Shown in pieces: positions 13,671 through 26,815 of a DNA stretch of 64,000 bases. How positions within the stretch are numbered: the stretch's first letter is position 1; every line of letters begins with the position of its first letter. Source of the DNA: Streptomyces sp. NBC_01210 (GTDB lineage Bacteria > Actinomycetota > Actinomycetes > Streptomycetales > Streptomycetaceae); the NCBI RefSeq assembly GCF_036010325.1, contig NZ_CP108549.1, positions 1,488,001-1,552,000 of the forward strand, given 5' to 3'. The notes beneath the pieces were generated by a model. That model did not search any database. It saw nothing but the letters and a program-made list of their open reading frames with translations, and was not told where the DNA came from. Both the position numbers and the translations under genes were made by a program.

Positions 13671-13734
13671 CAGGTGGTGGCGTGCTCAGGAGGTGGCGTG
13701 CTCAGGAGGTGGCGTGCTCAGGTGGTGGCGTGCT
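13671..13734. repeat. Four tandem 16-bp repeats over the cvnD stop codon
   Basis: CAGGWGGTGGCGTGCT repeated at 13671, 13687, 13703 and 13719. Each unit carries TGA on the minus strand, so any copy-number change would still end the cvnD frame or alter its last residues. The real stop is at 13718-13720. Confidence 0.9.
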
Positions 13735-14323
13735 CGCGCTGCCGGTCGGCTCGGGTCAGGGCGTGCTCCACCACTGCCACCAGCACCTCCTTGACCGACT
13801 CGCGTTCACGCGCGTCGGTCATCAGCAGCGGCACCTCGGAGTCGAGGTCCAGCGCGGCACGCACGCTCTCGCCGGGGAAACGGCCTGCCCCTTCGAAGCA
13901 GTTGACGGCCACGGTGAACGGGATGCCACGGCGTTCGAAGTAGTCGATCGCCGCGAAGGAGTCCTCCAGGCGGCGGGTGTCGGCTAGGACGACCGCGCCC
14001 AGCGCGCCCTGCGCCAGCTCGTCCCAGAGGAACCAGAAACGGTCCTGCCCCGGTGTGCCGAAGAGATACAGCACCAGGTCCTCGCGGAGCGTGATGCGTC
14101 CGAAGTCCATGGCGACCGTGGTGGTCGTCTTGTTCTCGACGCCTACGATGTCGTCGACGGGCCGGCCGGCCTCGCTCAGCGTCTCCTCGGTGCGCAGCGG
14201 TCTGATCTCGCTGACCGCGCCCACCAAGGTTGTTTTGCCCACGCCGAATCCGCCTGCCACCAGGATCTTCAGCGTCACCGGTTCGACGGGTGGCTTTCGG
14301 CGGCTAGAGCGCCCGAAGACCAT
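13718..14323 (-). CDS. cvnD: Conservon GTPase CvnD
   Basis: Small Ras/Rab-like GTP-binding protein, 201 aa, output switch of the conservon, expected to be membrane-associated in complex with CvnA-C. The P-loop GGFGVGKT is at residues 24-31; G3 is LFGTPGQDRF; the NKxD motif is replaced by NCF (VNCFEGAG), as is common in this bacterial family. Start ATG 14323 overlaps the cvnC end by 20 bp. Last gene of the four-gene conservon; its 3' end lies in a 16-bp tandem repeat. No cvnE-type P450 follows. Confidence 0.93.
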   Translation of the reverse strand: MVFGRSSRRKPPVEPVTLKILVAGGFGVGKTTLVGAVSEIRPLRTEETLSEAGRPVDDIVGVENKTTTTVAMDFGRITLREDLVLYLFGTPGQDRFWFLWDELAQGALGAVVLADTRRLEDSFAAIDYFERRGIPFTVAVNCFEGAGRFPGESVRAALDLDSEVPLLMTDARERESVKEVLVAVVEHALTRADRQREHATT

Positions 14324-14717
14324 TGATCACCTCGCGGAGAATGCTCACGTCCGGCAGTTCGGCCGGCGGAACGGGACGGGTTACATGCACCAGTGCGTCC
14401 TCGACGAGATCGCCGACCAGGACGCGGACCACTCCGACGGGAAGGTCCAGGATGGCCGCGAGTTCGGCTATCGACTGAGGGGTGTCGCCACAGCGCTCGA
14501 CTATTTCGACTTGCTCCGGGGAGAGCAACTGGTCGCGGCCGGGGTCGTCGGCCGCGAGCTCCGGGACGACCAGAGCGATCAGGTCGAGGCGGTGACGGGT
14601 CGCGCTGCTGGTCCGTCCGCGGGTCATCGCGTACGGACGGACTACGGGGCCCGCTTCGGCATCGAAGAAGTGGTGGGGCTGCGGAGCGTACTGAGCTGAC
14701 TCACTCATGCCATCCAC
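14304..14717 (-). CDS. cvnC: Conservon protein CvnC (DUF742)
   Basis: 137 aa, DUF742 winged-helix-like protein: VVRPYAMTRGRT near residue 27, a LSPEQVEIVERC...SIAELAAILDLPVGVVRVLVGDL helical core and the DVSILREVINGLRAL terminus typical of the family. Thought to link the CvnA kinase/CvnB roadblock proteins with the CvnD GTPase. GTG 14717 directly follows the cvnB stop, with GGAGGG upstream; ATG 14708 is an alternative start. Confidence 0.92.
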   Translation of the reverse strand: MDGMSESAQYAPQPHHFFDAEAGPVVRPYAMTRGRTSSATRHRLDLIALVVPELAADDPGRDQLLSPEQVEIVERCGDTPQSIAELAAILDLPVGVVRVLVGDLVEDALVHVTRPVPPAELPDVSILREVINGLRAL

Positions 14718-15173
14718 TCACCCTCCGGTGCGCAGACCGGAGCGGGGCGCGGTGGTGAGGTGGACGCCGACCCGCTTGACCATGAGTGTCATCTCGTACG
14801 CGACCTGGCCGACGTCGGAGTCGGAGTCGGCGAGCACGGCCAGACAGCTGCCGTCGCCCGCCGCCGTGACGAACAGGAAGGCCTCGTCCAGCTCCACGAC
14901 GGTCTGCCGGACCCTGCCTGCCTCGAAGTGGCGGCCGACGCCTTTGGCGAGGCTGTGGAATCCCGAGGCGACGGCGGCGAGATGCTCGCTGTCCTCGCGG
15001 GTGAGGTCCCGGGAGGTGCCGGTGGCCAGTCCGTCGCCGGAGAGCACCAGTGCCTTGCGGATGCTGGCGACGCGGTCGACCAGCTCGTCGAGGAGCCAGT
15101 TGAGCTCGCCGGAGCCGTTGGTGGTGGGATGGGCGCCGTGGGCGTTGGGTGCTGCGGCGTGCGGTGCGGTCAT
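14718..15173 (-). CDS. cvnB: Conservon roadblock/LC7 protein CvnB
   Basis: 151 aa roadblock/LC7-fold protein: ELNWLLDELVDRVASIRKALVLSGDGLATG opens the domain and FLFVTAAGDGSCLAVLAD is the central strand pair. These proteins regulate or act as GAPs for MglA/Rab-like GTPases such as CvnD. ATG 15173 overlaps the cvnA stop (ATGA). Second gene of the operon. Confidence 0.93.
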   Translation of the reverse strand: MTAPHAAAPNAHGAHPTTNGSGELNWLLDELVDRVASIRKALVLSGDGLATGTSRDLTREDSEHLAAVASGFHSLAKGVGRHFEAGRVRQTVVELDEAFLFVTAAGDGSCLAVLADSDSDVGQVAYEMTLMVKRVGVHLTTAPRSGLRTGG

Positions 15174-17926
15174 CGACCGTCCCCCTCAGATGTCGTTCCT
15201 GGTGCGGTCTCGCCGGGGCCGGCGGCCTGGTCGGTGGCCTCGGCATCTTCGGCGTTCTGCAGGCGGCCGCGCTGCCAGCCTCGCTGCATTGAAGCCATGC
15301 GGGAGCGTACTTGTTCCGCGTCCCGCTCGATGTCCTGCTCGGTTGCCGGTGCGGGCGGCTGCCCGGCGGCGCCGGACGTCTCCCTGAGCTGGGGGGCGAG
15401 GCTGGCCTGGCGGACCCGACGGGGCAGGCCGTCGAGCGTGGCCGGGGCCGGTTCCGCAGCGGGGCGCGGTGCCGGTGTCGGTGCCGGTTCCGGAGTGGGT
15501 ACGGGTGTGGGCGCGGGTAGCGGGGTGGGTGCCGGCCAGGCCGCGGGGCGTGGATCGGGGGCCGAAGCGAATGGAGGCTCCGGGCTGCGCCCGGGGCCGG
15601 GAGCCGGGGCGGGGTGGGCCCGGCCCCGCTCGTCCACCCTGCGGCCGTGGTCGGAGACCAGGGTCGGAGGCTTGCGGCGGGGCAGTGGCACCGGGCCGCC
15701 GATCTGCCCGGGCGACTGGTCCCGCGCCTGCTGGTGCTGCTCGTCCGGGGTTTCGCGACGACGGTCCCTGGCGCGGGCACGGAAGATTGCGCCGCGTTCG
15801 CTCTCCGTGTCCTCGATGTCGGCGATGGAGTCGCCTCCGCCGAGCACCGGCCGGTCGTCGAAGCCCAACGCGCCCACGGGCGCCTCCAGTTCGACGGGTC
15901 CGTCCAGGAGCGTGGAGCCGCCCAGACCGGTGGGGACCTGGGCGAGCGTCGCGAGCCTGCCGTCGCTGCCGCGGCGTCCGGCCGCGCTCTCGCTCTTGCG
16001 GTCGAGACGGAAGCCGGTGCCCTGGGTCTCCGGAGCCTCGGTGAGCAGGGCCGCGGGGATGAAGACGACCGCGGTGGTCCCGCCGTACGGGGAGGGCTGC
16101 AACGAGACCCGGACATTCTGGCGCTGGGCGAGCCGGCTGACGACGAAGAGGCCGAGCCGGTCGGTGTCGGAGAGCTCGAACTCGGGGGTCTCGGCGAGCC
16201 GCAGATTCGCGTCCAGCAGCCCTTCCGGGGCCATGCCCAGGCCGCGGTCGTGGATTTCGAGCGTGAAGCCGTTGGCCACCCGCTCACCGTGCACCTGGAC
16301 GGCGGTGTGCGGGGGCGAGAACACCGTGGCGTTCTCGAGGAGTTCGGCGATGAGGTGAGTGAGGTCGGCGACCGCCGGACCGCCGACACCGATACGCGGC
16401 AGCCGGCGCACCTCGATGCGCTCGTAGTCCTCGACCTCGGCGACCGCGGCCCGTACGACGTCCATCAGCTGGATCGGCTTGCGCCACTGGCGGGACGGTG
16501 CCGCGCCGGAGAGGATCACCAGGCCCTCGGCGTGCCGGCGCATACGGGTGGTGAGGTGGTCGAGGCGGAACAGGTCAGCGAGTTCCTCGGTGTCCTCGGT
16601 GCGCCGCTCCATGGTGTCGAGGAGCGTGAGCTGGCGGTGCAGGAGGACCTGGTTGCGGCGGGCGAGATTGACGAAGACCTCGGAGACTCCGCGGCGCATC
16701 TCGGCCTGGCGGACGGCGGCCTCGACGGCGGCCCGCTGCAGGGTGTTGAGCGCCTGGCCCGCCTGGCCTATCTCGTCCTTGTCGTAGTCGAGGCGCGGGG
16801 CCTCGGTCTCGACGTCGACATGCTCGCCGGCCGCGAGGCGGCGCATCACGCTGGGGAGGCGGACGCCGGAGACCTCGTGGGCCTCCTTGCGCAGCCGGGA
16901 GAGGTCGCGGACCAGGTCCCGGCCGATGCGTACGGAGACGATCACCGAGACGAGGAGGGCGAGGAAGCCCAGTACGCCGGCGATACCCGCCTTGACGAAG
17001 ACGCTGTATGCCGAGGGCTCGACCCGGTGCCGGTAGCGGACGTCCGCTTCTTTGGCCTCGCGGACGAGGTCGTCGAGGACGGGTGTGGCCGCGGCCTGCC
17101 AGCGTCCGGCTTCGGACGCGCCCGCGTCGCCGACCGGGCCGGCCTGGATGAGGCGTTCCTCGGTGTCGCGCAGGGGCGCGGTCTTGGGGCTGCGCCAGTA
17201 CTGCTCGTAGATCTCGCGTTCCTTGGCGGGCAGGACTTCGAGGTTGGTCTCGTAGTACAGCTCGCGCTTCGCCACGAAGTCGGAGAGCGAACGGATCTCA
17301 TCGGCGGTGATCTTGCGGGTGGTCAGCGAGGAGGCGATCAACGCGTCCTCGCGGGACAGCATTTCGGCGGCGCGGACGAGGCCGACGAGTGCGCGGCCCT
17401 GGCGCTCCATGTCGACGTCGTCGAGGGCGTGGAGTGTCAGCAGGAAGCCGTAGCAGGGGTCGACGAGCCGGTTGTAGAACTCCAGGGCCTGGCTGCGGGA
17501 GACCGTGCCCGCCTCCACGGAGCGGCGCAGGGCGCCGAGGCCGTCGAGCGCGTCGAGGAGAGAGCTCAGCTTCTGCGAGGTGTCGGACCGCATGTCCTCG
17601 CGGATTCCGGAATTCTCAATATTCGATTTGATCTTGGCCACGGCCCGGTCGGTAGCCTCACGCCGATCGCGCAGGGAGGGCAGAGCGTCGGAAGCCCGGC
17701 GGTCGGCAAGGTAGATGAGCGTCTGACGGCGCTCCTTCTGGATGACGATGGCGGTGTCCGCGACCGGATAGCCGACCTTCTTCACCACGGAATTGACATC
17801 CAGAAGCTGACTGGCCTCCCGACCGGTCAGTACGGTGGCGAAGCCCCAGAGCGCGGTGAGGGAGACGAGCGGCACCAGCAACAACGCCACGATCTTCCGG
17901 CGGATGGACTTCCCGCGAAAGCGCAT
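15170..17926 (-). CDS. cvnA: Conservon sensor histidine kinase CvnA (NIT domain)
   Basis: Membrane sensor kinase-like protein, 918 aa. TM1 at about residues 12-32, an extracytoplasmic nitrate/nitrite-sensing (NIT) type helical domain, TM2 near residues 305-330 (GIAGVLGFLALLVSVIVSV), HAMP, then an HATPase domain with N-box ELLENATVFSPP (about 525) and GLGMAPEGL (about 562). The C-terminal 300 residues are Pro/Ala-rich and low-complexity. ATG 17926 has GGGGGAGG upstream; the frame continues to 18121 without support. The kinase lacks an obvious H-box, as in other CvnA proteins, and no response regulator is adjacent. Confidence 0.93.
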   Translation of the reverse strand: MRFRGKSIRRKIVALLLVPLVSLTALWGFATVLTGREASQLLDVNSVVKKVGYPVADTAIVIQKERRQTLIYLADRRASDALPSLRDRREATDRAVAKIKSNIENSGIREDMRSDTSQKLSSLLDALDGLGALRRSVEAGTVSRSQALEFYNRLVDPCYGFLLTLHALDDVDMERQGRALVGLVRAAEMLSREDALIASSLTTRKITADEIRSLSDFVAKRELYYETNLEVLPAKEREIYEQYWRSPKTAPLRDTEERLIQAGPVGDAGASEAGRWQAAATPVLDDLVREAKEADVRYRHRVEPSAYSVFVKAGIAGVLGFLALLVSVIVSVRIGRDLVRDLSRLRKEAHEVSGVRLPSVMRRLAAGEHVDVETEAPRLDYDKDEIGQAGQALNTLQRAAVEAAVRQAEMRRGVSEVFVNLARRNQVLLHRQLTLLDTMERRTEDTEELADLFRLDHLTTRMRRHAEGLVILSGAAPSRQWRKPIQLMDVVRAAVAEVEDYERIEVRRLPRIGVGGPAVADLTHLIAELLENATVFSPPHTAVQVHGERVANGFTLEIHDRGLGMAPEGLLDANLRLAETPEFELSDTDRLGLFVVSRLAQRQNVRVSLQPSPYGGTTAVVFIPAALLTEAPETQGTGFRLDRKSESAAGRRGSDGRLATLAQVPTGLGGSTLLDGPVELEAPVGALGFDDRPVLGGGDSIADIEDTESERGAIFRARARDRRRETPDEQHQQARDQSPGQIGGPVPLPRRKPPTLVSDHGRRVDERGRAHPAPAPGPGRSPEPPFASAPDPRPAAWPAPTPLPAPTPVPTPEPAPTPAPRPAAEPAPATLDGLPRRVRQASLAPQLRETSGAAGQPPAPATEQDIERDAEQVRSRMASMQRGWQRGRLQNAEDAEATDQAAGPGETAPGTTSEGDGR

Positions 17927-18342
17927 GGCCTCCCCCTGCTCAACCCCCGCACGGTGCGGGTGGTGTTCCGTCAACAAACGGCGTGAGCCTACTACTGTCA
18001 CACGGACAACTCGAAGGCTCGTCCGGATGTTTTTCGGCCGACGACAGGCGCGTTGATCATGGGTTGTCCTGGTATTCGGGGAGATGGCATTCCGGCGTTG
18101 GCGGACCACACCTGGCGGCACGTCATCTTTCGGACCGTCACAGATGGCTGGAATTCTTCGCTCTGCGGGAATCTTCCTGCCTGGTCAATCGTCAATCTGT
18201 ACGGGGGCTCGGGGATCCGCAGGCGCCACGCACATCACATTCGGCTCGACTTCGCCCCGGCTTTGGATTCGGCGGCCGGAGTAGAGCAGCGGAATCCGGG
18301 CAGCCACCCTGAAGTCGGACAGAGGTGGGAGTGACAGGGTCC
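17927..18342. other. 416-bp divergent intergenic region
   Basis: Separates cvnA (minus) from the small membrane-protein gene (plus). It is noticeably less GC-rich than its flanks and should hold both promoters. I see no convincing RNA gene, repeat or palindrome. Confidence 0.4.
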
Positions 18343-18832: not shown

Positions 18833-21800
18833 CTAAAACACGCCCTGGCCGACGGGGTCCGTGGCGGCCGGGGCGGCATCTTCCGGGTCCGTGGCGGGTT
18901 GGTCGGTGACGGCCGCGTCCACGCTCGGCCGGTCGTTGGCAACCGGGTCCGTGGCGGGCTCCGCCGGGGGCGGGGTCCGCTTGAACATCCGGGTCGCGGT
19001 GATCTCGCCGTGCACCGACTCACCTGACGGGTCCTGCTGCGGCAGTCCGGGCCGCAGATGTTCCTCCACGCTGATGTACTTCAGGCCCGCGCGCAGATCG
19101 GCGTCATTGCGCAGCCGGATGACCAGCGGGAATTCAGCGAGGGCCGTGGTGTCGAAGAGCCCGGTCGTATAGAGCAGCTGGACGCCCAGGGCATTGGAGA
19201 CGGCGCGCTGGAGCTCCAGCAGATACGTCGCGTTGGCCCGGCCGATCGGATTGTCGAGGAAGAGCGTGCCGGCGTGCCGGTGCTTGTCCCTGCCGCGGTC
19301 GTTGCTGCGCAGGGCGGCCATCGTGCAGTACAGGGCGATCGCCGCGGTGAGCAGCTGGCCGCCGGAGAAGACATCTCCCATCTGACCCACCGGGACCCGC
19401 TCGGCGCGCAGCACGGCGTCGGGCTTGAGGATCTCCACGGCTACACCCTTCGGCTGGAGGGCAGCCTGAACCCCGCGCAGGAGCAGGGACATTCCGTCCC
19501 TGCGGCCCTCCCCGTAGACCGCGGTGGAGTTCTTCTTCACGGCGGCGCGGGTCGCCTCGTCGATGACCTCGCCGAGCCGCTCGGCGAGCGTCGTCTGGTC
19601 CGGCTCGTCGAAGCGGATCCGCAGGAACTCCTGCCCCGACCACTCACCCAGCCCCTCGGGAAGGCGCGAGAGCCGCTGCGCCGAACGCAGCGTCGTCAGC
19701 GCCGACTCCACCAGACCGCGCAGCCGGTCGACGATGGTGTCGCGGTTGCGCTCCAACTGCTCCAGCTCGTCGGTCAGTACGCGCAGCCGGGGCGCGAAGG
19801 CCTCCGCCCACTTCGCGGCGTGCTCGGGAAGAGACGCCGCGGGCAGCTCCCGGATCTGCTGGCGCGCGGGGGTGCGCACCTGCTCGTACCGGGTGGAGTT
19901 GGCGTGCCGTACGAGGATGTCGCTCGCCTCCCGTACGGCTGCCTCGGCGGCCGAAAGGTCGGTGGCGCACCCGCGCAGCGAACGCCGGGCTTCGGCGGCG
20001 GAGTGCCGCGCCTCCTCCAGGCTGCCCGGGTAGGGATCCTGTGCGGTCTCCTCGTCCTGGCTGTGGTCCCGCAGCAGGTCGCGCAGAAGCGCGGCGGTCT
20101 CGTCGAAGCCGCCCGCCGCGTCCTCGGCCACCCGGTGCGCGTGCAGCAGGCTGGTGTGAGCTGCGCGGGCCGTCTCCAACGCGTCGGTACGGGAGGTCAG
20201 TTCGGCGGTGGCGGTACGCAGCCGGGCCTGGGCCTGCTCGGCGTCGGCGGGGACCAGATCCTCGGGGAGTTCGGTGTGCGCCTCGCCGTCGGCGGGGGCC
20301 AGCCGCTCGGACTCGCCGCGCAGCCGGCCGAGCTTCTCGCTGGCTTCCGCAGCGCGCGACTCCAGCATCTGTACGAGCGACTCGGCGCGGGCGGCGGCTG
20401 CCTGGCGAGAGGGCCCGTCGGCACCGTCCGTACCCTCCAGGAGCTGCGCGGCGCGGGTGCGGACCTTGTTGGTGAGCCGGTCCAGCTCGGCGAGGGCCGC
20501 GCTCTCGTCGCTCTCGGCGCGGGCCTGCTCGGCGCGCAGGTCGGCGCCGACGCCCACCTTCTCGTACAGCTGGGAGGCAGCGCGGTACGCCTCGCGCAGG
20601 GCGGGCAGCGCGGTGCGCGGCGCGTCCGGGTCCGCGTCGGGGAGGTTTTCGGGGGCACCGGCGACCTCGGCCCGCTCGGCGCGGAGCGCGCGAGCGGTAC
20701 GGCGGGCGTCGTCACCGGCACGCTGGGCGGCACGGCGGTCCTCGTCGGCGGCCTTCGCCCGCTCCAGGCAGGTCGCGGCCCGGGCCTCGGACTCGACGGC
20801 CTCGTCGGCCAGTTCACGCAGTTTCAGCTGCCAGCCGGCCCGCTCCCGGAGCCGGAAGGCGAGGCCCGCGAGCGCGTCGGCGGCACGGCGGGCGCGCTGG
20901 GCCGCGTCCTGGCGCTCGTCCCGGACACGGGCCGCGTCCGCCGCGGCCTCGTCCGCCTCCGCGCGCACCGTACGGGCCTCGCTGAGCGTCGCCTCTGCCT
21001 CCTCGGCGGCTTCGCGGGCCGTCTGCGCGCCCTGCGCGAGCTCGGCGAGCATGCCGGCGGGGCAGTCGTCGCGCCAGGAGCCGAGGCGGGCGGCGATCGA
21101 ACGGTCTCCGGCGAGCCGGGCCGCCAGCGTGCGGATCTCCTCGTCCCGGGCGGCGGCCCGGGCCCGCAGGGCCTGCCGCTCCTCGTCGGCGGCGTGCTCG
21201 TCGTGCATGGCGGGGTTCGGCGGTACGAGGAACACCTCGCCGTTCTCGCCACCGGTGCCGGGGCCGGGGCTCGGCACGGGCGCGAGCAGCGCGGCGGCGG
21301 TTCCGACGGCCACGGCGGAGCGGGGCAACAGCGCGGCTCCGGCCAGGACTTCGCGCGCGCGGGCGTGCGACGCCGGGTCGGTGATCACCACACCGTCTAC
21401 CAGCTCGGGCCGGGCGGCGAGCACGGCGGCATGATCGGCCGGGTCGACGGCCTGCGCGAGGTAGCGCCAGCCGGGGAGGGCGGGGATGCCGTGCTCACCG
21501 AGGTACTCGACAGTGGCGAGGACGTCGGGTCCGGGGGGCAGCAGCCCGCCGTCGCCCAGCGCGCCGAGGATGCGGGCGTCGTCGGCTGCGGCGGTACGCA
21601 GATCGAAGAGATTCCGTTCGGCGGAGGCGACGGACTGGTCGAGGAGCTCGCGCAGCTCGTCGGCGAACCGGTCCAACTCGTCTGCGGTGAGAGGGCCTTC
21701 GTCGGCACGGAGGGGGGCGGTGACGACGGTGCGGGTGGGATGGGCTGCGGCGGGAATGCGACCGGCGGCCGGGTGACCCGACCCGTCGGGCCCGGCGAGC

Positions 21801-24154
21801 GCGTGAGCCATATGTCCCTCGGCTCGCGCGTCGGCGAGCGCGTGAGACGGACGGAGGCTCGCGTGCCCGTGGTCCGCGCCGTGGGTGGCCGCTCGCCCGC
21901 CACCGGCTCCCGCCTGCCCGTGGCCGACCGCTCCACCGGGTGCCTCGGAGACGGCGGGCTCCTGGTCCGTACGGGCAACGCCGTCACCGTAATCGGCCGC
22001 CGTGGGGCCCTGGCCCGCAACGGCTCCGGCCTGGGCGTGGGCTGAGTCCCCGCGCCCATCGGCGAACGACCCTCCGTCCGTACCGGCAACGCCACCGCCC
22101 GGCGCCGGGACCGACGGTTCCTGGCCCGCGGGCTCGGCTCGCAGCCCGTCGGCCGAGTGGCCCGCCGTCTGGGAGGCCGTCGCCCCATGCCCGGTAGCGG
22201 AGAGTCGCCCGACGCCACCCGCGGCCTCCGGCGTACCCCCGGCAGGAAGGTCACCCAAGCCCGCCGCGCCCGAGTACCGCCGCGGGGAGGGCACCGCCGC
22301 CGGAGCCGATGGCGGCAGGCTGAGCAGCTCCGCCAGACGCTCGTCCTCGGCGATCGAGTCCGCCGCGCGGCGCTCGGCCTCGTACGCGTTCTCCGCGGCC
22401 AGCGCCGCGTCGGCCGCGCGGGCCGCGGCCAGTTCCGCGCGCGCCTCCGCCGCGGCCGCCTCCTTCGCCCGGTCCGCCGTCGTACGCCCGGCCTCGCGGG
22501 CCGCGTCCCAGGCCGCGACCGCCGACTTCTCCGCGTCGCTCGCCGCGAGCGCCGCTCGCGCCGGGTCGGCGTCGGGTGCGGTGTCGTCGAGCCAGCCGGC
22601 CCGTACCGCCTCGGCCGTCTCCTGCTCCACCTCGCTGAGCCGCTGGCGCAGATGACCGATCTCGCTGCGGGCGCGCTGCGCCTCGGTGGCGGCGACCGTG
22701 GCGTCGCGGTGGGCGGCCTCGCCCGCCTCCTGGAGCGCCGCGGACCGCTCCTCCTCCTCGTTGGCCACGCGCTCCCCGCCCTCGGCCGCGGCGTGCAGCG
22801 CGCGGACGAGATCGGCGGCGGCCGTGGCGCGGGCGGCGAGCGCCGGGGCCGCGTCCCGTTCGGCCTCACGGATCGCCGCGGCGACGCGCGAGGAGCGGTC
22901 GCCGGCGGCCCGGTGGCGCAGTACGGCTTCGGCGGCCTGCCAGGCGGAGTGCAGTGTGCGCGCGTCGGTCAGCTCGCGGCGCTGTGCCGCGGCGCCCTTC
23001 TCCGCGACGGTGAGCGCCAACGAGGCGTGCCGGTAGGCGAGTTCCGCGGCGATGAGAGAGCTGCGGCTGCGCGCCTGCTCGGCCTCGGTGACCGTGTGGG
23101 CGGCGGAGGTGACCTGCTGGGCGAGGTCGCTCGTACGCCCGCGCTCCTCCGCGGCGCGCGCGGAGAGCCGACGCGCGAGCGTACGGGTGCGGCGTTCGGC
23201 GCCCGCGTGGATCTCGCGGGCCCTGGCGCGGGTCTCGGCCGCCTCCACGATCCGGCCGAGCAGATCCGCCGATCCCGCAGTGAAGTCGCGTTCGGCGGTG
23301 AGCTCCGCGCGGCGGCCGAGTTTGTTGCCGAAGCTGCTGACGAGGTCGGCAAGGCCGTCCGTGTCACGGGTGTCGGTGACGGCGCGCAGCAGCAGGTCGG
23401 TGAAGTCGGAGTCCTTCTTGACCGCGAAGAGTCCGGCCGCCTCGCCCTCGTCGGCGTTCATCTCCCGCTGGTAGCGGAACAGTTCGGGGTCGAGGCCGAT
23501 GTCGCCGAGGTGCTCGTTCCAGCGGTCGTGGATCTCCTCCCAGTGCACATCGAGGTGCGGATACGCCTTGCCGGCCTCGGTGATGGCGTCCCGGAAGCCC
23601 TTCATGGTGCGGCGGCGGCCACGCGCGCCCGATGCGCCCTCGACGGGTGGGCGGACGGTGGTGGCCTCGGCGACCGGGAGCGAGTCGAGGCTGAGTCCGG
23701 GGCCCGGCCGGAAGGAGTACCAGGCTTCCGCGAACTTCCGTGGGTCGTTGGAGACCTGGCGACCCCGCCACTCGCTGACCTTGCCGACCACCACCAGCTC
23801 GCCGGTGAGGGTGTGCTGCCACTCCAGGGCGACATGCCCGCAGTCGTCGGCGAGCAGGAATTTGCGCAGTACACCGGAGCTGGCACCGCCAAGGGTGTTG
23901 CGGTGGCCGGGCAGCATCACCGAGAAGATCAGCTTCAGCAGTACGGACTTGCCGCCGCCGTTCTCCAGGAAGAGCACACCCGCGGGGGCGGGGCGGCGCG
24001 GCGGGCCGACCGGCTCCTCCTCGAAGAACTCCGCCTGGGCAGGGGCGGGGTGGGGCACGGGCTCGCCGACCCCGCGCAGGTCCAGCACGGTGTCGGCATA
24101 GCGCGCACCGGCGGGCCCGATGGAGTAGAGGCGTACCCGGGACAACTCGTACAT
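18833..24154 (-). CDS. SMC/MukB-like ATPase (B subunit of condensin-like operon)
   Basis: 1773 aa, the largest gene here. Walker A FLENGGGKS with K69; long Ala/Arg/Glu-rich coiled coils at about 260-600 and 1015-1500; a globular hinge at about 820-1010 (LGEHGIPALPGWRYL). The C-terminal head has the ABC-like signature VFSGGQLLTAAIALY (S1597) and Walker B TLFLDN. The Walker B acidic pair is D1634-N1635, so the usual catalytic Glu is Asn. A His/Gly/Ala-rich low-complexity insert (about 610-810) precedes the hinge. Gene order F-E-B matches mukFEB, mksFEB and jetABC, so it probably loads on DNA with its partners. It lies 34 bp after the E gene. No JetD/MksG Toprim nuclease follows: the next gene is on the other strand. 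Confidence 0.8.
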   Translation of the reverse strand: MYELSRVRLYSIGPAGARYADTVLDLRGVGEPVPHPAPAQAEFFEEEPVGPPRRPAPAGVLFLENGGGKSVLLKLIFSVMLPGHRNTLGGASSGVLRKFLLADDCGHVALEWQHTLTGELVVVGKVSEWRGRQVSNDPRKFAEAWYSFRPGPGLSLDSLPVAEATTVRPPVEGASGARGRRRTMKGFRDAITEAGKAYPHLDVHWEEIHDRWNEHLGDIGLDPELFRYQREMNADEGEAAGLFAVKKDSDFTDLLLRAVTDTRDTDGLADLVSSFGNKLGRRAELTAERDFTAGSADLLGRIVEAAETRARAREIHAGAERRTRTLARRLSARAAEERGRTSDLAQQVTSAAHTVTEAEQARSRSSLIAAELAYRHASLALTVAEKGAAAQRRELTDARTLHSAWQAAEAVLRHRAAGDRSSRVAAAIREAERDAAPALAARATAAADLVRALHAAAEGGERVANEEEERSAALQEAGEAAHRDATVAATEAQRARSEIGHLRQRLSEVEQETAEAVRAGWLDDTAPDADPARAALAASDAEKSAVAAWDAAREAGRTTADRAKEAAAAEARAELAAARAADAALAAENAYEAERRAADSIAEDERLAELLSLPPSAPAAVPSPRRYSGAAGLGDLPAGGTPEAAGGVGRLSATGHGATASQTAGHSADGLRAEPAGQEPSVPAPGGGVAGTDGGSFADGRGDSAHAQAGAVAGQGPTAADYGDGVARTDQEPAVSEAPGGAVGHGQAGAGGGRAATHGADHGHASLRPSHALADARAEGHMAHALAGPDGSGHPAAGRIPAAAHPTRTVVTAPLRADEGPLTADELDRFADELRELLDQSVASAERNLFDLRTAAADDARILGALGDGGLLPPGPDVLATVEYLGEHGIPALPGWRYLAQAVDPADHAAVLAARPELVDGVVITDPASHARAREVLAGAALLPRSAVAVGTAAALLAPVPSPGPGTGGENGEVFLVPPNPAMHDEHAADEERQALRARAAARDEEIRTLAARLAGDRSIAARLGSWRDDCPAGMLAELAQGAQTAREAAEEAEATLSEARTVRAEADEAAADAARVRDERQDAAQRARRAADALAGLAFRLRERAGWQLKLRELADEAVESEARAATCLERAKAADEDRRAAQRAGDDARRTARALRAERAEVAGAPENLPDADPDAPRTALPALREAYRAASQLYEKVGVGADLRAEQARAESDESAALAELDRLTNKVRTRAAQLLEGTDGADGPSRQAAAARAESLVQMLESRAAEASEKLGRLRGESERLAPADGEAHTELPEDLVPADAEQAQARLRTATAELTSRTDALETARAAHTSLLHAHRVAEDAAGGFDETAALLRDLLRDHSQDEETAQDPYPGSLEEARHSAAEARRSLRGCATDLSAAEAAVREASDILVRHANSTRYEQVRTPARQQIRELPAASLPEHAAKWAEAFAPRLRVLTDELEQLERNRDTIVDRLRGLVESALTTLRSAQRLSRLPEGLGEWSGQEFLRIRFDEPDQTTLAERLGEVIDEATRAAVKKNSTAVYGEGRRDGMSLLLRGVQAALQPKGVAVEILKPDAVLRAERVPVGQMGDVFSGGQLLTAAIALYCTMAALRSNDRGRDKHRHAGTLFLDNPIGRANATYLLELQRAVSNALGVQLLYTTGLFDTTALAEFPLVIRLRNDADLRAGLKYISVEEHLRPGLPQQDPSGESVHGEITATRMFKRTPPPAEPATDPVANDRPSVDAAVTDQPATDPEDAAPAATDPVGQGVF

Positions 24155-24188
24155 GGCGGCGGACTCTCGTCTTCGGCAGGTGGCAGGG

Positions 24189-25088
24189 TCAGGCGTGGAA
24201 GGGCAGACCGGCGTCGGCGGTCAGCTCCAGGTCGTCCGCGTCGGTGGGCGGCACGAGCGTGGCGGTCCCGTCGCTGACCGGTACGACGCCGAGCTCGAGC
24301 AGTTCGGCCATGGCCGAGCTGCCCGCCATGTCGCGTACCTGCAACTGGTAGCGGGCGGTGGTGCGGTATGCGCCTCCGGCGTCGTCACCGGTGCGCTGCA
24401 GGAAGCCCGAGTCGGTGAGGAAGGCGACGGCCTTGCCGACGATGCCGGTGGTGGATCCGGCGAGACGGCGCGCGTCCTTGGTGGCGCCGGTGGCGCTGCG
24501 CCGTGCGTAGATCCGCCAGGCCGCTTCCAGGCCTGGGGCTTCGGTGGCGGGGTCGGTGTTCTCGCCCTGCTCCTCGGCGCGCTCCTCGAGGCGGCGGCAG
24601 GCCTGGCGGACGAAGGCATCGACGCCGTTGACGGTGATCCGGCCGATGTATCCGTCGTCGGCGAGGTCTTCGGGGCGCGGGAACGCCATGGCGGCGACGG
24701 CGAGATGTGCCAGGCCGTGCAGGAAGCGGTCGGCGGAGTCGGCGGACGCGCGCCGGGCGTAGTCGCCCATGCGGACGGCGAAGACCGAGTCCTCACCTGC
24801 GGCCACGGCCATGCCGGCGCGCGTGGAGACTTCGAGGACGACGAGGCCGAGGCCGGTGGCGACAGCGTCGGCGAGCCGGGCGAAGGCGGCGTCTTCGCGG
24901 TAGCGGCGCAGCAGTTCGGCGTACTCGGCGTCGCGTGCGGGCAGCAGCTTGGGCTGCAGCCCGAAGGAGACGAGTCGGGCGGCGTCGGCCGCGTCGGCGG
25001 GCGTGACCGCGGTCGGGGTGGCCGGGCCCGACTCCTCATGGACGTCCGCCTCACGCCACTCGTGCTGTTCGGCGTGGTGGTCGGTCAC
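24189..25088 (-). CDS. MukE/MksE-like winged-helix subunit (E)
   Basis: 299 aa, predicted alpha-helical winged-helix protein with helix-rich core (DAAFARLADAVATGLGLVVLEVS) and a second winged-helix-like part (GSTTGIVGKAVAFLTDSGFLQRTGDD). Proteins in this position bind the kleisin and DNA in MukBEF/MksBEF/JetABC complexes. Function is inferred from its place between kleisin and ATPase genes more than from sequence. GTG 25088 is preceded by AAGGAGCACCA; the longer frame runs into the upstream repeat element. Confidence 0.7.
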   Translation of the reverse strand: MTDHHAEQHEWREADVHEESGPATPTAVTPADAADAARLVSFGLQPKLLPARDAEYAELLRRYREDAAFARLADAVATGLGLVVLEVSTRAGMAVAAGEDSVFAVRMGDYARRASADSADRFLHGLAHLAVAAMAFPRPEDLADDGYIGRITVNGVDAFVRQACRRLEERAEEQGENTDPATEAPGLEAAWRIYARRSATGATKDARRLAGSTTGIVGKAVAFLTDSGFLQRTGDDAGGAYRTTARYQLQVRDMAGSSAMAELLELGVVPVSDGTATLVPPTDADDLELTADAGLPFHA

Positions 25089-25129
25089 TGGTGCTCCTTG
25101 CTGCGGAAGAGGTGAAGGGGTGGCCAGGG

Positions 25130-25270
25130 GCCCTTCGGGCCTGTCCTCAGTCGCCGGACGGGCTGGAGGATCAGCCCCTCCGGCGTTTGAGGAGCGGGGC
25201 TTGGGGCGGAGCCCCAACAGGTGCCTCTCCGGCGGTTGAGGAGCGGGGTCCGGGGCGGAGCCCCGGTACT
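25130..25270. repeat. Inverted/direct repeat element inside the F-E-B operon
   Basis: CCTCAGTCGCCGGACGGGCT (25145-25164) pairs, with 3 mismatches, with AGCCCCTCCGGCGTTTGAGG (25173-25192), forming a large hairpin. Then TTGAGGAGCGGGG plus a GGGGCGGAGCCCC mini-hairpin occurs twice (25187-25215 and 25237-25265). It belongs to the family also seen at 2650 and 32115. Lying between two operon genes, it could stabilise mRNA or attenuate E and B. Confidence 0.8.
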
Positions 25271-25275
25271 GGTAT

Positions 25276-26802
25276 TCACGCGGCCTCCGTGCGGTCCGCC
25301 GCCATGCCCGCCGCGTCCAGCAGTGCCGTGCCCACGATCAGGTCGGCGCCGCCGAACTCCGGGTCGTCCAGCTCGGTGCCGTCGTCGACGGCGAACAGCA
25401 GGCGCTCCTCGCCCTGCCGGTAGGCGGTACCGACCGGTGGGCTCGCCGCGTGCACGGCCAGCAGCGCGACCAGATACGGCAGTTCGGGGTCGCGGCGGCG
25501 GGCCTCGGCGAGCAGGCCGGAGAGCCGGCGCGGTGCGTCGTGCTCCAGGTCGAGCAGCTCCATCGCGCTCGCGAGCTGCTCGTCGCTGAACCGGCTGTCG
25601 TCCGGGGTGGCGATCAGATCGGGCTCGGGCATCTCCGCGCCCAGATGCTCGCGCTCCACCGGCGGGGTCAGCAGCATGTCGACCAGATCACCGACCCGTA
25701 CGGACGACGGCGTGCGCAGCCCGGTGCCGCGCGCGAAGAATGCGTCCGTGACGCGGATCGCCGCTTCCAGGGGCAGCGGCAGCAGCGGGGCAACGAGCTG
25801 CCCGTACAGATCGAGTCCGGAGCGCGCGGTGGGCCGGGCGAAGGCCTGGCGGTCCTGCTCGGCGCGGAACAGCGGGCCGGCCTCCAGCAGCCGGGACTGC
25901 AGCTGGGTGTGGCGGCGGATGCAGTCCTTGACTATGTCGACCAGCTCGGCGGCGCGCCGCTTGTGCTCCGGGTCCTCGGCCTCGTCGCGTGCCTTGCGGA
26001 TGTTGGTGAGGATCGCGTTCTCATGGCGGTAGCGGTCGGCGACATGGTCGAGCGCCTCGGCGATCATGTCGGGGACGGCGTTCAGCCAGTCGACGGCCCG
26101 CACATTGCGGCGGGTCGCTTCCAGGGTCCTGCGCAGTGTCTCGGCGTACTGCACGGTGCGGTACCTGGCCTGCTCGGCGGCGAGCTGGGCGTCGGCGAGC
26201 CTGCCGCGGCTGATCAGGACCTCCAGCTTCACCTCGGCCGCGATCTGCGCGCTGGTGACGTCCGTGTCGAGCGCGCCGACCAGGACGTTGACCGCTTCGT
26301 CGGTCGTACGGAGATAGACGCTGCCGCCGTATCCCGGGACTTCCTCGATGAGCTTGAAGTCGTAGTCACGGCGGGTGTAAACGCCGTCGGGTCCGAAGGT
26401 GCCGTACACCGCGCGGAATCCGCGGTCCACGCTGCCGACGTTGATCAGGTTCTCCAGCACCCAGCGGGCGACGCGCTCATGCTCGGCGACCGGGCGCCGC
26501 GGGGCCTGGGCCGCGACGCGCAGCAGCAGCCTGGCCACTATCTGGTCATGGTCGGCGCCGGTGTCGAAGTCCATGTTCAGTGTGACGAGGTCGATGGCCG
26601 CGAGGGCGACCTCCGCCATCGCGTAGACCGAGTACTCGCCCGCGAGATTGGCCTTGCGCACGTCGAGATCGTGCAGCGGCGCGGTACACGCGAGCGCGCG
26701 CAGCCGCCGCGCGAGCCCTTCGTCGGCGGCCGGGCCCTGTGCGGGCCTCGGCCCCGCGCTGAGCTGGGGCGGAACGAAGTCCGTCGAGGCAGGCGAAGTC
26801 AC
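25276..26802 (-). CDS. MukF/MksF/JetA-like kleisin subunit (F)
   Basis: 508 aa, mostly helical. N-terminal winged-helix dimerisation-like region (HERVARWVLENLINVGS, RRDYDFKLIEEV, SVYLRTTDEAVNVLVGALD), a middle helical bundle with long helices (AEVKLEVLISRGRLADAQLAAEQAR and following), and a C-terminal winged-helix-like region. This architecture fits the kleisin of MukBEF-like complexes. GTG 26802 has no good ribosome site, but TAATCT ends 7 bp upstream, so a leaderless mRNA is plausible. First gene of the operon; a repeat element separates it from E by 187 bp. Confidence 0.75.
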   Translation of the reverse strand: MTSPASTDFVPPQLSAGPRPAQGPAADEGLARRLRALACTAPLHDLDVRKANLAGEYSVYAMAEVALAAIDLVTLNMDFDTGADHDQIVARLLLRVAAQAPRRPVAEHERVARWVLENLINVGSVDRGFRAVYGTFGPDGVYTRRDYDFKLIEEVPGYGGSVYLRTTDEAVNVLVGALDTDVTSAQIAAEVKLEVLISRGRLADAQLAAEQARYRTVQYAETLRRTLEATRRNVRAVDWLNAVPDMIAEALDHVADRYRHENAILTNIRKARDEAEDPEHKRRAAELVDIVKDCIRRHTQLQSRLLEAGPLFRAEQDRQAFARPTARSGLDLYGQLVAPLLPLPLEAAIRVTDAFFARGTGLRTPSSVRVGDLVDMLLTPPVEREHLGAEMPEPDLIATPDDSRFSDEQLASAMELLDLEHDAPRRLSGLLAEARRRDPELPYLVALLAVHAASPPVGTAYRQGEERLLFAVDDGTELDDPEFGGADLIVGTALLDAAGMAADRTEAA

Positions 26803-26809
26803 GCTGCAC

Positions 26810-26815
26810 AGATTA
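26810..26815 (-). promoter_or_regulatory. Candidate -10 box of the F-E-B operon
   Basis: TAATCT on the minus strand, ending 7 bp before GTG 26802. Transcription would begin at or near the start codon. A -35 is less clear (TTGTCA or TTCGAC upstream with non-ideal spacing). Confidence 0.45.

Follow-up and report, generated by a model that had tools for sequence, protein, structure and literature searches.

Smc-ScpAB combines a structural maintenance of chromosomes (SMC) ATPase with a kleisin and a winged-helix partner, a composition resembling that of the operon described below, and MukBEF probably extrudes DNA without cutting it. In the Wadjet system, a dimeric JetABC motor is described as extruding the plasmid, with JetD becoming activated once extrusion is complete, and a hinge channel is reported to be missing in both Wadjet III and MukBEF (PMC12647877). 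Corynebacterium glutamicum possesses MksBEFG, a second SMC-like complex beside Smc-ScpAB, whose nuclease MksG is reported to connect to the motor via the kleisin (PMC10123090). Wadjet systems of Streptomyces are reported to lie mostly toward the chromosome ends, and no core operon lacking JetD is mentioned in the accessible portions of that study (PMC10482375). The accessible portions of papers on Streptomyces chromosome folding likewise treat SMC as the condensin and name no MukBEF-like complex (PMC8410768, PMC13121528), and no JetD-less Wadjet-type or MukBEF-like operon of Streptomyces was found in titles and abstracts, in a search that was incomplete and took in few subscription papers. Here, an operon in a 64,000-nucleotide stretch of Streptomyces sp. 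NBC_01210 (hereafter the window; positions 1,488,001-1,552,000 of contig NZ_CP108549.1, which has 9,076,647 bases in a genome of 9.2 Mb) is described, which appears to encode a type III JetABC motor and lacks JetD.

Identity of the JetABC operon

The window harbors three minus-strand open reading frames (ORFs) in the order kleisin, winged-helix protein and SMC ATPase, spanning 18833-26802 (Table 1), the F-E-B order that an earlier note on this DNA had recognized. The likely starts were chosen by eye and by homologue length, and that of jetA replaces the boundary at 26815 given in the note. All three genes are free of internal stops and have a guanine-plus-cytosine (GC) content at third codon positions of 89.5-91.2%, and a scan for promoters and terminators found none. 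As in Wadjet type III, the first protein matches JetA3 (PADLOC PDLC00567, E 9.5e-188; ORF scanned as 25279-26814), the third matches JetC3 (PDLC00588, E 0), and JetB sits between them. This middle protein drew no PADLOC match at E up to 10, but the same genome has a complete type III operon whose JetB shares 38% identity with it (E 1.7e-39). Because these homologues (JetB 38%, JetC approximately 30% identical) identify the subunits, the operon is, to judge from its sequence, a type III Wadjet JetABC without JetD, and the likeness to jetABC drawn in the earlier note holds. The closest named JetA proteins belong to Streptomyces (94% identity).

Table 1. Features of the jetABC operon, in window coordinates
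Feature	Position	Strand	Remarks
jetA-like kleisin	25276..26802	-	508 aa; GTG start at 26802; PADLOC JetA3
jetB-like winged-helix (MukE/KITE-type) subunit	24189..25088	-	299 aa; GTG start at 25088; homology to terminal JetB
jetC-like SMC ATPase	18833..24154	-	1773 aa; ATG start at 24154; PADLOC JetC3
JetC Walker A, NGGGKS	23945..23962	-	read off the translation; coordinates hand-counted
JetC ABC signature, FSGGQ	19355..19369	-	coordinates hand-counted
JetC Walker B region, LFLDNP (D-N, not D-E)	19247..19264	-	coordinates hand-counted
JetC Ala/Gly/Pro/His-rich low-complexity insert, before the hinge region	21719..22321	-	~200 aa; limits approximate

With MukBEF of Escherichia coli the operon shares the F-E-B order, a MukF-like kleisin model and the lack of a nuclease subunit; it differs in that none of the three proteins matched any Pfam family at E up to 1, with MukB, MukE, MukF, SMC, ScpA and ScpB included. 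NCBIfam gave chance-level matches only, a sequence search of the PDB gave no match below E 0.1, and phage records gave no match. MukF chains occupy eight of the top ten Foldseek rows for the JetA model (best E 3.5e-3), so that the predicted protein has a MukF-like kleisin fold, as the earlier note had anticipated for the first gene. For the JetB model, a MukE-MukF entry ranked first and a JetABC entry second, with weak E values and with the chains assigned to MukE and JetB by their length.

The JetC ATPase motifs are conserved among JetD-less relatives, with Walker A kept in 84 of 88 JetC ORFs and the ABC signature in 79 of 88. LDNP is found in 80 of the 88 JetD-less and 21 of 25 JetD-bearing JetC ORFs; SMC proteins usually carry a catalytic Glu at the Walker B position where type III JetC has Asn. 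The span from Walker A to the signature is 1535 aa in the window JetC compared with 1349-1446 aa in the other 12 listed Streptomycetaceae JetC, and 1280-1295 aa in the listed Amycolatopsis and JetD-bearing JetC, except for the terminal copy described below (1334 aa). The pre-hinge insert is longer in the window than in the other listed Streptomycetaceae JetC. Separately, a GGGGCTCCGCCCC...CCGCTCCTCAA repeat occurs twice in the gap between jetA and jetB (25187-25264), and both of its words are absent from the rest of the window.

Absence of JetD and a second, complete system

JetD was not found within the 24 kb around the operon, in agreement with the earlier note; the sole match of that search, antisense within jetC at 30 bits, arose from long query ORFs overlapping jetC. 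Across the whole genome, JetD_C (PF09983) gave no match, with C. glutamicum matching as positive control, and PF09664 also gave none but is uninformative, as it matched no control either. The type III family PDLC00594 (JetD3) was found twice, in terminal copies only. Since PF09983 misses this terminal JetD3, it is by itself an insufficient test for JetD.

A genome search with the window JetA recovered two more JetA copies, 31% identical to it, near both chromosome ends within terminal inverted repeats that span at least 32.6 kb and share 99.99% identity. Each belongs to an operon of jetA, jetB, jetC and a fourth gene arranged head to tail, the fourth encoding JetD3 (PDLC00594, E 2e-59); the JetB encoded there matched no PADLOC model at E up to 1. 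This jetABCD is therefore carried twice, within approximately 20 kb of each chromosome end (L033:11815-20000, mirrored in L034), a position that fits the reported location of Wadjet in Streptomyces (PMC10482375). The earlier note had allowed that the nuclease might be encoded elsewhere: a JetD is indeed encoded elsewhere, but as part of a separate jetABCD. Three genomes (G007, loci L035 and L119; G151, loci L128 and L111; and G000, the window's own) each carry a JetD-less JetABC together with a separate JetD-bearing one.

The genome also encodes ScpA, the marker of Smc-ScpAB, approximately 0.6 Mb from the operon, so that the operon is additional to Smc-ScpAB, as in one of the two options of the earlier note, and separate from it. 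This coexistence distinguishes it from MukBEF, as MukB is reported to replace SMC in E. coli and its relatives (PMC13121528), and parallels MksBEFG of C. glutamicum; the C. glutamicum operon, however, has the MksG nuclease, and JetD_C matches there and not in the window's genome.

Prevalence and selection

Of 199 genomes of the genus, 193 carry the window-type JetA, as do 192 of the 194 that are of good quality. Among the matches listed, and excluding the window's own, identities are 88-96%; a few of the 193 genomes match more weakly, such as G121 (E 4e-70). ScpA was found in 190 of the 199. JetD was surveyed with the two families PDLC00594 and PF09983. JetD3 matched in 29 genomes, 15 of them at E below 1e-40, and JetD_C in 24; either family occurred in 32, and neither in 161 of the 193 JetA-bearing genomes. 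In nine genomes with JetD3 and window-type JetA on one contig, the two lie at least 0.3 Mb apart. The operon thus differs from Wadjet type III both in its gene content and in the contrast between 193 genomes with JetA and 15 with strong JetD3.

In a survey of 296 genomes of the class, JetA was detected in 43, namely in 28 genomes of the genus and in 15 belonging to a second family (f18), and its matches were confined to these (5 of 114 genera), while a separate scan did find JetA in Pseudonocardiaceae. JetA occurs in 19 of 35 genomes of f18. When 16 JetA-bearing genomes, 15 from f18 and a single one from the genus, were checked for JetD3, eight matched, four of them strongly (E 5e-32 or better).

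Among the copies most similar to those of the window, the median ratio of nonsynonymous to synonymous substitution rates (dN/dS; Nei-Gojobori) is 0.10 for JetA, with a maximum of 0.174 (30 sequences, 435 pairs), and 0.148 for JetB (29 sequences, 406 pairs). The ratio is 0.13-0.24 for JetD-bearing JetA pairs (n = 7) and 0.15-0.33 for JetD-less f18 pairs (n = 10); the purifying constraint on the window-type copies is therefore strong, but by itself not diagnostic.

Relatives with and without JetD

When named genomes were scanned with an alignment of JetA, at least 522 relatives were returned, of which the best 80 were kept, 70 of them readable for at least 1.5 kb past jetC. JetD follows JetC in six of these 70 loci, those of A. 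palatopharyngis, Amycolatopsis rifamycinica, Streptomyces sp. CB02366 (a diverged copy), a Micromonosporaceae metagenome-assembled genome (MAG), Actinoallomurus spadix and a Streptosporangiaceae MAG. JetD-less relatives include Actinacidiphila, Amycolatopsis, Prauserella, Pseudonocardia and the second family. No JetD adjoins the operon in any of the 28 readable Streptomyces and Actinacidiphila orthologues, not counting a diverged second copy with JetD (L180). In A. rifamycinica, JetD (L170:16548-17768) directly follows a jetABC whose DNA is 91.7-93.1% identical to that of JetD-less sisters, and fills approximately 1.08 kb from the end of jetC to the next conserved stretch. The same interval is short in all five Amycolatopsis sisters compared, mostly about 15-20 bases, and lacks JetD; a search with seven JetD proteins found no JetD remnant in them, just the overlap with jetC. 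A linear 77 kb plasmid of Rhodococcus carries a type III jetABCD with an annotated JetD (L144:8911-17248), whose JetA is 53.8% identical to that of the window.

The JetA tree of 81 rows omits the long-branch JetD-bearing loci L115, L116 and L126, the redundant Streptomyces loci L004, L013, L020, L037 and L088, and ten loci with less than 1.5 kb readable beyond jetC, and keeps six of the remaining Streptomycetaceae loci from the relatives scan (L180 apart); the 46 rows of the JetC tree were hand-picked. The window's Streptomycetaceae clade has a Shimodaira-Hasegawa-like approximate likelihood ratio test (SH-aLRT) value of 100 in both trees, and all its members lack JetD. JetD state must change five times in each tree, against shuffled means of 18.8 (JetA) and 13.4 (JetC), with three and four changes, respectively, forced by starred branches. 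A single origin of the JetD-less state, suggested by one change in an initial 40-row JetA tree, was withdrawn as a sampling effect, since the wider trees need five. If regain is disallowed, a hand count on the JetC tree gives 12-13 losses, which favors loss plus regain, whereas the JetD tree (20 rows) matches the JetC tree at well supported forks, which favors retention of JetD. In the JetA tree, most JetD-bearing branches exceed JetD-less ones in length, although exceptions occur in both directions. The trees fit both an early loss with several regains and many losses, and do not tell them apart; under either history, JetABC persists without JetD.

Gene neighborhood

In six of seven Streptomyces loci, jetC is followed by a convergent ORF of 144-241 aa and a sensor-kinase gene, and neither of these families contains an f18 locus. 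Neighbors were compared as ORFs of at least 80 aa with high third-position GC, in families of at least three loci each. The neighbors of the nine f18 loci differ from those of Streptomyces, and none of the 14 families listed is common to the seven Streptomyces and nine f18 loci; no partner gene replacing jetD, and thus no substitute effector, is visible around these loci. A conservon-like cluster lies downstream in the window (13718-18121), with a NIT/HATPase sensor kinase and a Roadblock protein (Pfam) and two small ORFs beside them.

Possible functions of the JetD-less operon

On balance, the operon probably represents a JetABC loop extruder that has parted from its nuclease and serves, alongside Smc-ScpAB, as a second condensin of MukBEF-like type. 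By analogy with the family, JetC would dimerize and bind and hydrolyze ATP at its heads, JetA would act as the kleisin closing the ring, and JetB would bind JetA in a MukEF-like manner, so that the assembled complex would extrude DNA loops but, lacking JetD, could not cut them. Strong purifying selection retains the operon, and the complex may have the chromosome as its target; most likely it acts on the chromosome or performs some other task that involves no cleavage. Of the two options raised in the earlier note, the housekeeping-type one appears to fit better than a nuclease elsewhere, because 161 of the 193 JetA-bearing genomes lack both JetD families searched. The earlier note had named a JetD gene co-occurring with the operon in other genomes as adverse to its reading; such a co-occurrence is seen in six of the 70 readable loci of relatives and in none of the 28 Streptomyces and Actinacidiphila orthologues. 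In S. venezuelae, loss of SMC is reported to abolish arm alignment, yet the phenotype of an smc hupS double mutant is reportedly rather mild (PMC8410768). The mildness of smc loss in Streptomyces would be in keeping with a further loop extruder.

Four other explanations were weighed. It is conceivable, though unlikely, that JetABC interferes with foreign DNA without a nuclease, extruding or compacting small circular or conjugating DNA and thereby silencing or destabilizing it. Plasmid extrusion by JetABC is reported to precede JetD activation (PMC12647877), and the conserved JetC motifs suit such a role as well. Against it, the sequence evidence gives it no preference over a chromosomal one, and circular plasmids find wide use in Streptomyces.

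Somewhat more doubtful is a persisting plasmid or phage defense in which JetABC recognizes DNA that is circular or incoming and the cutting falls to an unlinked nuclease whose sequence does not resemble JetD. JetD-bearing relatives place JetD right after JetC, and the close identity of jetABC in A. rifamycinica and its JetD-less sisters suggests that compatibility with a nuclease has been retained. However, no shared family among the 14 neighbor families listed offers a candidate, both JetD families are missing from most JetA-bearing genomes, and, to our knowledge, defense genes are rarely present in 97% of a genus. That the terminal JetD serves the window operon in trans is improbable: the genome does have JetD3 in each of its terminal repeats, but as part of a jetABCD with a distant JetA, and strong JetD3 is far rarer in the genus than JetA. 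A relic of a disappearing Wadjet system, which the missing JetD might suggest, is most improbable, because long and intact ORFs, low dN/dS and the presence of JetA in nearly every genome argue against a decayed defense island.

Implications

If the condensin reading is correct, Streptomyces and several other actinomycetes could own a second housekeeping condensin, the nuclease-less motor of a type III Wadjet, with traffic in both directions between weapon and condensin, a generalization we put forward tentatively. A near-universal second SMC complex, if true, would offer a direct and cheap test of redundancy with SMC. Sister copies with and without JetD, down to congeneric Amycolatopsis, provide natural pairs for studying a switch between chromosome folding and plasmid destruction. 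The operon and its relatives would then constitute a living record of a MukBEF-like condensin arising from, or becoming, an anti-plasmid system.
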